Shown here: one piece after another, positions 3,130 through 39,934 of the stretch | Numbering within the stretch: position 1 is the stretch's first letter | How the letters are laid out: every line of letters begins with the position of its first letter | DNA from: Bacilli bacterium | Lineage (GTDB): Bacteria > Bacillota_I > Bacilli_A > RF39 > UBA660 | Assembly (NCBI GenBank): GCA_017398945.1 | Contig: JAFQES010000018.1 | Location: 1-64,000, forward strand | DNA: 64,000 bases | Direction: 5' to 3' | The notes under the pieces: model-generated | Seen by the model: the letters and a program-made list of their open reading frames with translations, nothing else | The model's database searches: none | Told to the model about the DNA's origin: nothing | Position numbers and translations under genes: made by a program

Positions 3130-3152
3130 AAAAAAAGTCAAGTTTCCTTGAC
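3130..3152 (-). terminator. Terminator of the infC-rpmI-rplT operon
   Basis: GTCAAG, loop, CTTGAC hairpin followed on the - strand by seven T; it overlaps the rplT stop codon. Confidence 0.75.
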
Positions 3153-37018: not shown

Positions 37019-38221
37019 ATGAATAAAGAGATCAAACTAGAAGATATAGAAATTTATCAAAATAACTATTTAGCTGATAAAAATAATGTAAACATCCAAA
37101 AATTTATTTATGCCAACGGCATTAATGAAACATGTTTTAATTATGATTTAGAAAGCAAAACTAAATTTGATTTTAATATTGAAATACCAAAAGTTAAAAT
37201 GTATAACCAACGTAATGCTTATGAATGTAATATCTTTGCTTTTTTAAGAGTTGTTAAAGGCATTATAAAAAAGGAAAATAATTTTGACGCTAACAAACTA
37301 GATATATCTGCTAGCTACATTGATTTTTATGATAAATTAGAAAAAATAAATACTGCTTACAATGAATTATTTAAAGAAAAAAACTTAACTATACCTAAAA
37401 TATCTCAAATAATTAATAGATACATTGGTATTTACGGAACTTTCAACTATTGTAAAAAAATTATTAATAAATATGGTTTTGTTTTAAGCAAAGATATGCC
37501 CGAAGTAAATGGTAAATATAATGCTGTTCAAGTAAATGAATTATTAAGGCATAAAATCAAAGCAGATGCGCTATGTTTAATTAATCGAAACAAGGATAAT
37601 GATAATACTTTAAAAGATGATCTTATAAATGAAGCATATATTTTCTTATCAAAAGTTTTAGGAAATCCTCCAACAAAAGTAAAATTTGATAATAAAAAAT
37701 TTACACCTTTAGAGTTTCGAAATACTATCTTAAAAGATACATTAGATGATTATGTATCAGTAACAACATTTAACCAAAACGTTTTATATAGTAGCGACTC
37801 TTTTGTCCCAAGTGTTTATTTAAAAGATAATGAAGAAATAATTAGTATAAGTAACGAAGAATTAAAAAATGCCATTATAAAGCAATTAATAGATGGTATT
37901 GGCATCTGGTTTTCTTCCGAAGAATCAACAACATTAGACTATAGAGCTAATATATTAGATGATCATATTTATAAATATGATAAATACTTAAATATAAAAC
38001 CTTTATCAAAAGATGATAAATTATTAATGGATATAACAAGTTATGATCACGCTATGTGTATAACAGGTGCTTTAGTAAAAAATAATAAAGTTAAACAATT
38101 TAAAGTTGATAACAGTTTCGGTTATCATGGTAAATATAAAGGCAAATTAATAATGACTAATTCTTTTTTAGAAAATCAATTAATTGTTGCTATAATTAAC
38201 AAAAAATATTTAAATCACTAA
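37019..38221 (+). CDS. Divergent aminopeptidase C / bleomycin hydrolase-like cysteine peptidase
   Basis: 400 residues of the peptidase C1B type. The oxyanion Gln and catalytic Cys keep family spacing in NQRNAYECNIFAFLR (about 62-76; usually NQxxSGRCWIFA), the catalytic His is in YDHAMCITGAL, and the Asn in FKVDNSFGYHG (usually VENSWG). The triad is intact but surrounding residues, including the Trp after the Cys, have changed. PepC enzymes are cytosolic hexamers that trim peptides. A -10 box TATACT lies upstream with a weak -35, and GGTGA precedes the ATG. Function as an active aminopeptidase is probable, not certain. Confidence 0.8.
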   Translation: MNKEIKLEDIEIYQNNYLADKNNVNIQKFIYANGINETCFNYDLESKTKFDFNIEIPKVKMYNQRNAYECNIFAFLRVVKGIIKKENNFDANKLDISASYIDFYDKLEKINTAYNELFKEKNLTIPKISQIINRYIGIYGTFNYCKKIINKYGFVLSKDMPEVNGKYNAVQVNELLRHKIKADALCLINRNKDNDNTLKDDLINEAYIFLSKVLGNPPTKVKFDNKKFTPLEFRNTILKDTLDDYVSVTTFNQNVLYSSDSFVPSVYLKDNEEIISISNEELKNAIIKQLIDGIGIWFSSEESTTLDYRANILDDHIYKYDKYLNIKPLSKDDKLLMDITSYDHAMCITGALVKNNKVKQFKVDNSFGYHGKYKGKLIMTNSFLENQLIVAIINKKYLNH

Positions 38222-38244
38222 TGAAAAATTAGTGATTTTATTTT
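38212..38244 (+). terminator. Terminator of the PepC-like gene
   Basis: AATCACTAAT, GAAAA loop, ATTAGTGATT then TTATTTT on the + strand; it overlaps the stop codon. Confidence 0.75.
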
Positions 38245-38275
38245 AAATATATAGCAGAAAAGTAATTTTGCTGAT

Positions 38276-38304
38276 TTGTTTTATAAATATACTTTTTATA
38301 TAAT
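38276..38304 (+). promoter_or_regulatory. Promoter of peptide gene 1
   Basis: TTGTTT (38276-38281), 17 bases, perfect TATAAT (38299-38304) followed by GC. Predicted start near 38311 at GGATATA, the left arm of the 5'-3' pairing. Confidence 0.75.
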
Positions 38305-38372
38305 GCAATTGGATATATTTAATTAGCGTTAGGTGCACTCCTTTACATCAAACTGCAAAGGAGGTGGATTTT

Positions 38373-38450
38373 ATGACAAATAGAGAAAAATCTCAATTTA
38401 TTATAATCATCCTCTTATTTATTCTAGTATTTGTAATACTATTTAAATAA
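38373..38450 (+). CDS. Hydrophobic 25-residue peptide 1, candidate type I toxin
   Basis: The product is MTNREKSQF followed by a 15-residue aliphatic/Phe segment and a final Lys. It is short enough to insert in the membrane as one helix with a charged N terminus, like type I toxins of Firmicutes. AAAGGAGGTGG, the best ribosome site in the window, lies eight bases before the ATG. The leader segment CTCCTTT (38338-38344) can pair perfectly with AAAGGAG (38357-38363), hiding that site. Two paralogues follow. No named family is recognised. Confidence 0.75.
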   Translation: MTNREKSQFIIIILLFILVFVILFK

Positions 38451-38566
38451 AAAAAGCACACTAACGCTCAAGCTTGAGTCTTAGTGTGCAACCAAAAACT
38501 TTGGAGTGTACCTAACCTTGCGAAAATTAGATATATCCTTTTTTATTATATTCAAGTTGCCTTGAC
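38446..38566 (-). ncRNA. Predicted antisense RNA of peptide gene 1
   Basis: A minus-strand promoter, TTGTCA, 17 bases, TATATT (38573-38601), points at the 3' end of the peptide unit. A minus-strand terminator, GCACACTAA...TTAGTGTGC (38456-38489) followed by seven T, lies directly after the peptide stop. The RNA would be about 120 bases and fully complementary to the 3' untranslated part of the peptide mRNA, including its pairing arm at 38503-38538. Confidence 0.65.
38503..38546 (+). terminator. 3' end of peptide mRNA 1 and long-range pairing arm
   Basis: 38503-38538 (GGAGTGTACCTAACC ... TAGATATATCC) is the near-perfect reverse complement of the mRNA start at 38311-38341 (GGATATATTTAATT ... 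TTAGGTGCACTCC), and is followed by TTTTTT. The local hairpin is weak (CTAA/TTAG), so termination may rely on the long-range stem. Confidence 0.5.
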
Positions 38567-38710
38567 ATATCCAATATATCATAAATACAATGACTTGACA
38601 ATTAGTAAAATTTAATAATTTGTTTATTATAATTATCAAAATTTATCATAATATTCATTAAAAAAATAATACTTTAATACAACATATAACAATAATTTAA
38701 TTTTAGTAGT

Positions 38711-38739
38711 TTGCTATATCCCCTATCGTCTTATATAAT
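38711..38739 (+). promoter_or_regulatory. Promoter of peptide gene 2
   Basis: TTGCTA (38711-38716), 17 bases, TATAAT (38734-38739) followed by GC; same layout as copies 1 and 3. Confidence 0.75.
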
Positions 38740-38815
38740 GCTTTTTGGATACATTTGAAATATCAGATGTTTTCCCTTTCGATAATCTTTAGATTAAAGA
38801 AAGGTGGTGATAATT

Positions 38816-38893
38816 ATGACTAAAAGAGAATTCTCTCAATTTATTATAATTATACTATTATTTTATATAGTAATCACCTTACTATATAAATAA
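38816..38893 (+). CDS. Hydrophobic 25-residue peptide 2, candidate type I toxin
   Basis: The product is MTKREFSQF followed by a hydrophobic segment (IIIILLFYIVITLLY) and final Lys, the same length and plan as peptide 1. GAAAGGTGGTGA precedes the ATG. The leader can form a hairpin in which CCTTTC (38775-38780) pairs with GAAAGG (38799-38804), with an inner AATCT/AGATT stem, so the ribosome site is covered. Confidence 0.75.
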   Translation: MTKREFSQFIIIILLFYIVITLLYK

Positions 38894-39010
38894 TAAAAAC
38901 ATCTGATTTCAACATTAGTTGATTTCAGATGCTCATCCAAATAAGGGATTACATCTGATTCACACAATCAAATGTATCCTTTTTTATTTTATGCAAGATT
39001 ACTTGCTTAC
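38889..39010 (-). ncRNA. Predicted antisense RNA of peptide gene 2
   Basis: Minus-strand promoter TTGTAA, 17 bases, TAACAT (39017-39045). Minus-strand terminator stem CATCTGA-AAT-CAAC / GTTG-AAA-TCAGATG (38900-38931) then TTTTTATTATT, ending at the peptide stop codon. Length about 120 bases, as in the other copies. The promoter is the weakest of the three. Confidence 0.58.
38951..38986 (+). terminator. Terminator of peptide mRNA 2
   Basis: ACATCTGATT, CACAC loop, AATCAAATGT, four bases and then six T. The region 38943-38979 is also complementary to the mRNA start (38747-38778). Confidence 0.7.
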
Positions 39011-39155
39011 ATACCAATGTTATCACACATTAATTTAATTTACAATATTTAAAGTTTCTATAAATGAATATTAACATTAACAAAAGATTACCTAAAGGTT
39101 TTACTAAAAGCAATAATTAGCATCTAATATAGATCGAAAATCAAATTTTAGTCAT

Positions 39156-39184
39156 TTGCTATACTTTTCCCCATCTTATATAAT
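39156..39184 (+). promoter_or_regulatory. Promoter of peptide gene 3
   Basis: TTGCTA (39156-39161), 17 bases, TATAAT (39179-39184). Confidence 0.75.
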
Positions 39185-39260
39185 TGTTCTCAGATACATT
39201 TAAAAAGTCAGATGTTTTCCCTTTCAAATATCTTACGATAAATGAGAGGTGGTGATAGTT

Positions 39261-39338
39261 ATGACTAAGAGAGAAACTTCTTTTTTTCTTATAATTATAC
39301 TATTATTTTTTATAGTAATCCCCTTACTATATAAATAA
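39261..39338 (+). CDS. Hydrophobic 25-residue peptide 3, candidate type I toxin
   Basis: The product is MTKRETSFF followed by LIIILLFFIVIPLLY and a final Lys. It has the same length as peptides 1 and 2 and keeps T2, R4, E5, S7 and the last Lys, so the reading frame is under selection. GAGAGGTGGTGA precedes the ATG; CCTTTC upstream can pair with GAGAGG with one mismatch, a weaker version of the sequestering hairpin. Confidence 0.75.
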   Translation: MTKRETSFFLIIILLFFIVIPLLYK

Positions 39339-39450
39339 TAAAAACATCTGATTTCAACAATAGTTGATTTCAGATGCCCCAAATTCAGGGATTACATCTG
39401 ATTCACACAATCAAATGTATCCTTTTTTATTATATTCAAGTTGCCTTGAC
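39331..39450 (-). ncRNA. Predicted antisense RNA of peptide gene 3
   Basis: Minus-strand promoter TTGTCA, 17 bases, TATATT (39457-39485), the same boxes as copy 1. Minus-strand terminator at 39345-39376 plus T-rich tract, ending at the peptide stop. About 120 bases. The promoter lies 12 bases beyond the end of the same-strand GNAT gene. Confidence 0.65.
39394..39428 (+). terminator. Terminator of peptide mRNA 3
   Basis: ACATCTGATT, CACAC, AATCAAATGT then ATCC and six T, identical to copy 2. 39387-39422 is complementary to the mRNA start at 39193-39223. Confidence 0.7.
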
Positions 39451-39496
39451 ATATTTAATATAACACAATCAATTTAAATTGACAATAAGTAAATTT

Positions 39497-39934
39497 TTAA
39501 TTTATAAATTTTACATATCCAACTTCTTTATTAAATTCAAGACTTTCGTAAAGTTTTTGAGCCGCTTCATTATCTTTTTCTGCCAGCAATGCAACGAAAG
39601 CACAATCTTTACTTTTAGCATAATCATAAACATACTCCAATAATGTAGTTGCAATTTTTTGTCTTCGATATGCTTTATGAACTGAAACATTCCATATAGT
39701 TAAAAATGGTTTTAAATCTTCAACAATATCATGATTAATTATAAGAGATGTTATCCCTACTACTTTATTATCAATTTTAGCAACAATATGATGATAGTCG
39801 GGATTATTTTCTATTTTTTCATAATTATTTAGCAATTTTTCAAAATTAGTCTTTGTATCGTGATTATCATCATATATTTTGACAGCTTCTTCTAAATCTT
39901 TATTAGTTAATTTTTCTATTATTATTTCATTCAT
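39497..39934 (-). CDS. GNAT-family N-acetyltransferase
   Basis: 145 residues with the Gcn5-type fold: VVGITSLIINHD, then WNVSVHKAYRRQKIATTLLEYVYDYA, the acetyl-CoA pyrophosphate loop (RRQKIA in place of the usual RGxGIG), and FVALLAEKDNEAAQKLYESLEF at the C terminus. The substrate is unknown. GGTGAT lies before the ATG. It is the nearest gene to the peptide array, on the strand of the antisense RNAs, with no clear terminator between. Confidence 0.85.
   Translation of the reverse strand: MNEIIIEKLTNKDLEEAVKIYDDNHDTKTNFEKLLNNYEKIENNPDYHHIVAKIDNKVVGITSLIINHDIVEDLKPFLTIWNVSVHKAYRRQKIATTLLEYVYDYAKSKDCAFVALLAEKDNEAAQKLYESLEFNKEVGYVKFIN

Follow-up and report, generated by a model that had tools for sequence, protein, structure and literature searches.

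A three-unit array in a gut Bacilli genome belongs to a multi-copy family of likely type I toxin-antitoxin pairs with an unnamed peptide

Between positions 38276 and 39485 of the window (the whole stretch of DNA analysed, 64,000 nucleotides of contig JAFQES010000018.1) lie three copies of a short unit encoding a 25-residue hydrophobic peptide, which raises the question of whether the units are type I toxin-antitoxin pairs, as an initial annotation had proposed. Such systems easily escape detection, both the peptide and the RNA being short. Three criteria for membership can be tested by sequence: that is, a small hydrophobic peptide gene selected as a protein, an antisense gene overlapping the toxin mRNA, and a toxin mRNA that is structured and translationally masked.

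The anatomy described in the initial annotation held in full. The three ORFs are of equal length (25 codons; MTNREKSQFIIIILLFILVFVILFK, MTKREFSQFIIIILLFYIVITLLYK and MTKRETSFFLIIILLFFIVIPLLYK for copies 1, 2 and 3), with ATG at 38373, 38816 and 39261 and with the claimed spacing, 443 and 445 bases, correct to the base. The claimed promoter of the form TTGNTN-17-TATAAT and the claimed strong ribosome site are present in 3/3 copies (−35 elements TTGTTT, TTGCTA and TTGCTA, N17 spacer, −10 element TATAAT throughout; ribosome sites AAAGGAGGTG, AAAGGTGGTG and GAGAGGTGGTG), and the claimed conservation of T2, R4, E5, S7 and the last K is invariance in 3/3 peptides. The 1.2 kb is otherwise free of genes, as claimed, with no further plausible gene in 38276-39485 besides the three peptide ORFs and with neighbours that end at 38221 (a peptidase C1-like gene) and begin at 39497 (a GNAT-like ORF, 39497-39934, minus strand). 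Each unit also has a minus-strand promoter (TTGTCA-N17-TATATT, TTGTAA-N17-TAACAT and TTGTCA-N17-TATATT for copies 1, 2 and 3) directed into the toxin 3′ UTR, and a terminator hairpin for the antisense RNA that adjoins the toxin stop codon. The array runs from the sense −35 element of copy 1 (38276) to the antisense −35 element of copy 3 (39485), with the following features, in which RNAs and their structures are predicted:

38276..38304, plus strand: copy 1 sense promoter, TTGTTT-N17-TATAAT
38311..38341, plus strand: copy 1 mRNA panhandle, 5′ arm; beginning of the ~235-nt mRNA
38339..38366, plus strand: copy 1 local hairpin over the ribosome site, CUCCUUU..AAAGGAG
38373..38450, plus strand: copy 1 peptide ORF, 25 aa
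38456..38489, minus strand: copy 1 antisense RNA, terminator hairpin
38453..38565, minus strand: copy 1 antisense RNA, predicted, ~115 nt
38503..38552, plus strand: copy 1 panhandle 3′ arm and sense terminator U-tract; the opposite strand is the antisense A-rich leader
38552..38565, minus strand: copy 1 antisense RNA 5′ stem-loop, UCAAG-GCAA-CUUGA
38573..38601, minus strand: copy 1 antisense promoter, TTGTCA-N17-TATATT
38711..38739, plus strand: copy 2 sense promoter, TTGCTA-N17-TATAAT
38747..38769, plus strand: copy 2 panhandle, 5′ arm
38816..38893, plus strand: copy 2 peptide ORF, 25 aa
38890..39009, minus strand: copy 2 antisense RNA, predicted, with three stem-loops; terminator 38900-38931
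38952..38979, plus strand: copy 2 panhandle, 3′ arm
39017..39045, minus strand: copy 2 antisense promoter, TTGTAA-N17-TAACAT
39156..39184, plus strand: copy 3 sense promoter, TTGCTA-N17-TATAAT
39192..39214, plus strand: copy 3 panhandle, 5′ arm
39261..39338, plus strand: copy 3 peptide ORF, 25 aa
39345..39449, minus strand: copy 3 antisense RNA, predicted; terminator hairpin 39345-39376, 5′ stem-loop 39436-39449
39395..39422, plus strand: copy 3 panhandle, 3′ arm
39457..39485, minus strand: copy 3 antisense promoter, TTGTCA-N17-TATATT

Two smaller observations concern this anatomy. A same-genus genome (L228) has two units at the window locus beside the GNAT-like gene, versus three here, a tandem copy-number change. 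Elsewhere in the window, at 3139-3150, a solitary CAAGTTTCCTTG palindrome lacks the A-rich leader and seems to be an ordinary site, not a unit.

The three units belong to a large multi-copy family that extends well beyond the array and whose members number in the hundreds among uncultured gut Bacilli. DNA similarity reveals dispersed copies that lie opposite different short hydrophobic ORFs, and the units have in common a 28-nt antisense leader, CAAG-N4-CTTG-N5-AATAAAAAWGG. At ≤1 mismatch the leader pattern finds 11 sites in the 1.2-Mb genome, versus 0 for a reversed-pattern control; a looser motif adds two sites missed by the CAAG motif, L260 (G000:C27:43653), which has no ORF, and L261 (G000:C28:25093), which has an intact ORF (peptide MSKKDFLIFSLIFIIFLLIALLFVILK) and a GAAG/CTTC stem. 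The leader is present in 135/291 genomes of the same uncultured family, the reversed pattern in 0, and the leader is present in 0/131 genomes of other families in the class; an exact leader search of the order gave 80/193 genomes and drew members of the same family only. At least 115 stretches from named MAGs carry the leader, under labels that are mostly uncultured gut Bacilli, Tenericutes, Erysipelotrichaceae or Candidatus Ventrenecus and in a few cases Clostridia, Clostridium or Mycoplasma; such labels would fit the RF39 lineage. An exact-motif scan of viral contigs gave 0 hits; tblastn against plasmids and phages also gave none, which is a weak negative, since the low-complexity filter may mask the peptides, and the viral-contig scan is the stronger of the two. 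The ORF-to-leader distance is fixed at 147-181 nt. The sample was gathered mostly via the antisense motif and is biased toward intact antisense genes, a bias that peptide-first searches correct only partly. Nothing on these peptides, or on type I systems in this lineage, was found in the open-access literature searched. Because the 28-nt leader finds units with zero control hits, the family is open to direct mapping and testing.

The peptides of ~126 curated units are 24-31 aa long (few longer), are >60% hydrophobic, and fall into about six subfamilies, with starts MTKREFSQF..., MKTKTFIIKVLKL..., MKKREYNIKLLR..., MKKKDLLISFL..., MxKKDFLI... and MRKSEKYLCTIIILL...IKIVPTV. The ratio dN/dS is 0.20-0.33 in 6/7 peptide groups and 0.71 in group V. 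Representatives of all subfamilies matched no toxin model in Pfam or NCBIfam at E<=10, and Rfam covariance models gave no match at the gathering score across 38000-39700, the best being sub-threshold and unrelated. We conclude, from sequence alone, that the units contain a small hydrophobic peptide gene selected as a protein, which meets the first criterion.

The antisense logo, from 170 sequences, reads TTGACA, 17 nt, TGnTATTAT, and then CAAG-GNRA-CTTG. The loop is GNRA in 126/145 perfect stems, the stem variants GAAG/CTTC and CAAA/TTTG are compensatory, and GAGG/CTTC retains a G-U pair. From these patterns we infer that the antisense RNA in all likelihood begins with the conserved palindrome, folded as a stem-loop. 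Part of the invariance of the leader is explained by the A-rich stretch downstream of the stem-loop, since this stretch is complementary to the U-tract of the toxin terminator; another part is due to selection of the sample, because the motif doubled as search key, and an unbiased view of leader conservation comes from hairpin-agnostic and peptide-first searches. Searches with the peptide alone (subfamily I, then II/VI) found the antisense gene in 22 + 22 = 44/44 hits with downstream sequence; two further hits run off contig ends and are outside the 44. We conclude that an antisense gene overlapping the toxin mRNA, with conserved promoter, leader and terminator, accompanies the peptide in all testable peptide-first hits. 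The second criterion is thus met for the gene, the RNA itself being inferred.

The leader of the predicted sense mRNA pairs over ~25-30 bp with the mRNA's own 3′ end, directly 5′ of the U-tract. Window mRNAs fold at −79.7 and −75.9 kcal/mol, with z of −10.4 and −10.2 versus dinucleotide-preserving shuffles, and, across 112 units, the subfamily means of whole-transcript z range from −5.5 to −10.4, in every subfamily. In the same 112 units the cognate 5′-3′ duplex has −32.8 kcal/mol versus −17.8 with other-subfamily partners. In subfamily I, double-sided change occurs in 11 pairs, versus 5.2 ± 1.4 in shuffled data (0/500 shuffles), and 97% of cells are paired, versus 32-44% with partners slid; a single divergent sub-clade of 3 to 4 sequences accounts for part of this covariation signal. 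The probability that the SD hexamer is unpaired is 0.09-0.34, versus 0.44 in leader-shuffled controls. We infer that the toxin mRNA is structured, through covarying 5′-3′ pairing, and translationally masked, through its SD, which meets the third criterion. Since the window folds lie 10 sd below shuffles and the leader pattern recurs in the genome with no control hit, the window units are not a product of chance.

The two halves of the unit are lost asymmetrically. The toxin is broken in ~30 of some 160 units found via the antisense leader, mostly by deletion of promoter and start (about 25 deletion remnants; deleted-toxin units L035, L064, L089, L090, L102, L109, L114, L132, L145, L147, L148, L161 and L164), with nonsense codons in L002 and L031 and a frameshift in L044. 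This asymmetry is the decay expected if a toxin without its antitoxin is harmful; toxicity is inferred, and sampling by the antisense motif favours the toxin-less class. The many antitoxin-only remnants provide a natural series for the study of pair decay. Among them, L002 (G000:C15:105699-105970) is a fourth close copy in the genome, dead, with TAA at codon 5 and intact RNA elements.

The results establish that the type I criteria testable by sequence are all met and that no named family is matched. Sequence and comparison show the anatomy, the conservation, the covariation, the selection on the peptide, the peptide-antisense association, the loss asymmetry and the operators; we consider it likely that the units are type I toxin-antitoxin pairs with an unnamed peptide, toxicity and transcripts being inferred. 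The initial annotation's type I reading is supported by comparative sequence evidence, because peptide selection, a universal antisense gene, mRNA covariation, SD masking and asymmetric loss all favour it; growth inhibition and transcripts are inferred. Its further claims, that the peptide is selected and lacks a named match (none in Pfam or NCBIfam), held, and its two RNAs per unit, ~235 nt sense and ~120 nt antisense (~115 nt here), are predictions with comparative support. The search of relatives that it had proposed as a check found the antisense gene in every testable peptide-first hit. The case that it had named as refuting, loci with the frame broken and the RNA kept, does occur, in a minority (L002, L031, L044 and the deletion remnants), which does not outweigh selection, because dN/dS is 0.2-0.33 in most groups and toxin loss is predicted for a toxin-antitoxin pair. 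It had seen neither the large multi-copy family nor the LexA box on part of it. Evidence against the type I reading includes the dN/dS of group V, the absence of a LexA box from the window copies, the sampling through the antisense motif, the partial reliance of the subfamily I covariation on one sub-clade, and the expected release of the 5′ arm when the antisense RNA binds, which leaves the silencing step to inference.

According to the hypothesis that the units are type I pairs, the ~235-nt mRNA from the sense promoter would encode a single-helix membrane peptide of 25 aa, and the full-length mRNA would be doubly shut, by pairing of the 5′ leader with its own 3′ end and by the local hairpin over the ribosome site. 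The convergent promoter would produce a ~115-nt antisense RNA with a small stem-loop at its start, full complementarity to the toxin 3′ UTR and an end beside the toxin stop codon; RNase III, for which the genome has a gene, would cleave the sense/antisense duplex. Antisense pairing with the 3′ UTR would free the panhandle's 5′ arm, and, by inference, silencing must therefore occur by cleavage and degradation or by refolding, as in the BsrG/SR4 class of B. subtilis. Trimming or refolding of the mRNA would activate translation. Inferred here are the production of both RNAs, toxicity by membrane insertion, RNase III as executor, and the opening of translation by trimming or refolding.

One rival, which we consider unlikely, is that the peptide is a regulated, non-toxic membrane peptide with a stress or signalling role and that the antisense RNA is an ordinary cis regulator. 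In its favour, toxicity is unshown, and selection, promoter control and RNA structure would look alike. However, three observations are those expected of an addictive toxin and not of a useful peptide: a genome holds many paralogues, the peptide half is often lost where the antisense half is kept, and the peptide never occurs without an antisense gene (44/44 testable). A second rival concerns only the antisense 5′ palindrome, which would serve as the DNA operator through which one regulator controls all antisense promoters. We initially read it so; in favour, it is a short inverted repeat, CAAG-N4-CTTG, that adjoins a promoter and is extremely conserved. We dropped this reading as improbable: the palindrome lies at or just past the start site predicted from TTGACA-N17-TGnTATTAT, its loop obeys GNRA, and its stem varies by compensation and by a G-U pair at the expense of DNA symmetry, all of which favour the RNA stem-loop. 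The genome has other CAAGNNNNCTTG sites, which were considered as a possible regulon; all but a few were inspected, and these turned out to be additional units or to lie in coding sequence. The weakest rival, small palindromic MITE-like mobile elements with incidental ORF and promoters, accounts for the inverted repeat ends, the dispersed copies, the tandem array and the 2 vs. 3 copies at one locus in two related genomes, but is very unlikely in view of codon-level purifying selection, the fixed ORF-to-leader distance (147-181 nt), covarying internal stems, different peptides inside one frame of RNA elements, and absence from viral contigs.

Among the known systems closest to the units are TxpA/RatA, BsrG/SR4, BsrE/SR5 and YonT/SR6 of Bacillus subtilis, which likewise have a short hydrophobic peptide. 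In those systems a convergent antisense RNA of ~100-200 nt overlaps the 3′ end of the toxin mRNA, the ribosome site is masked and RNase III is expected to act, as is predicted for the window units; SR6 overlaps the yonT 3′ end (PMC5848175). Unlike them, the family has peptides of 24-31 aa without a Pfam or NCBIfam match, is chromosomal, multi-copy and not prophage-linked, has an invariant GNRA-capped antisense 5′ module, and has a LexA box on a subset of units. The predicted closure of the mRNA by 5′-3′ pairing recalls AapA1/IsoA1 of Helicobacter, in which the full-length AapA1 mRNA is untranslatable through long-distance 5′-3′ pairing and metastable folding (PMC6733600). The hok and tisB mRNAs are likewise untranslatable at full length through such pairing and folding. 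No sequence relation to these three was found, and, unlike theirs, the predicted antisense RNA here complements the 3′ UTR, not the translation start. Fst/RNAII (par) of Enterococcus resembles the predicted units in its small membrane peptide and in its short RNAs transcribed toward each other. The par RNAs share direct repeats, whereas here an inverted repeat lets the mRNA pair internally, and there is no match to a Pfam toxin model.

Inputs across the family would act on the toxin promoter and never on the antisense promoter, with a LexA box signalling DNA damage in some units and a second upstream motif in others. The gene lexA is present above the family cut-off in 17/19 genomes of the family, that of the window included, and most lexA promoters carry boxes, for example TGAACATTTGTTTG (window genome) or TGAACAAATGTTTG. 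A LexA-box PWM built from lexA promoters of the lineage (threshold 6.8) detects a box in 47/126 toxin promoters (~37%) versus 0/126 antisense promoters. The box lies exactly 1 nt before the −10 element in 44/47, like the box before lexA in the same lineage; 23 boxes are identical 13-mers, and boxes occur across all peptide groups, with only 1/19 units in the MKKKDLL group. The second motif, GTT[CT]G[CA]TTG, adjoins the −35 element in 25/126 toxin promoters (~20%; expected, 0.02), ~29 nt before the −10 element (for example, L126, L116, L105 and L080), and never shares a promoter with a LexA box. We infer that a subset of the family belongs to the LexA (SOS) regulon, both sequence requirements, a lexA gene and a box in the toxin promoter, being met. 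The window promoters (38276, 38711 and 39156) have PWM scores of −12.0 to −0.7, below 6.8, and lack GTT[CT]G[CA]TTG too; SOS control therefore applies to relatives and not to the window, whose copies are, by inference, probably expressed from plain promoters.

LexA control of this kind has precedents in E. coli, where tisB/istR-1 and dinQ/agrB encode single-helix membrane toxins with LexA on the toxin, not the antitoxin, promoter (PMC8145889, PMC3567139), as in the box-bearing relatives. The toxin promoter of symE/symR is also under LexA. Unlike these three, the family is in a different phylum, has a Gram-positive-type LexA box and has unrelated peptides and RNAs; tisB, dinQ and symE are one locus each, whereas the family comprises many paralogous units. 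A bolder reading, which we offer tentatively and lean slightly against, is that DNA damage, through LexA boxes on toxin promoters, induces batteries of mutually insulated membrane-peptide toxins in each cell, that sister units with the same peptides obey a second, unknown regulator, and that the whole is a multi-copy TisB counterpart that arose independently in Bacillota, in uncultured, reduced-genome gut Bacilli. If the LexA link is true, Bacillota have an independent counterpart to the stress-triggered membrane peptides of E. coli (TisB, DinQ), and its carriers are gut bacteria that have been seen chiefly through metagenomes.

A separate observation concerns the antisense promoter. A terminator-like hairpin with a T-run overlaps it in 55/145 units, versus 9 in shuffles (for example, L278, L273 and L256), and could perhaps insulate the promoter from upstream transcription.
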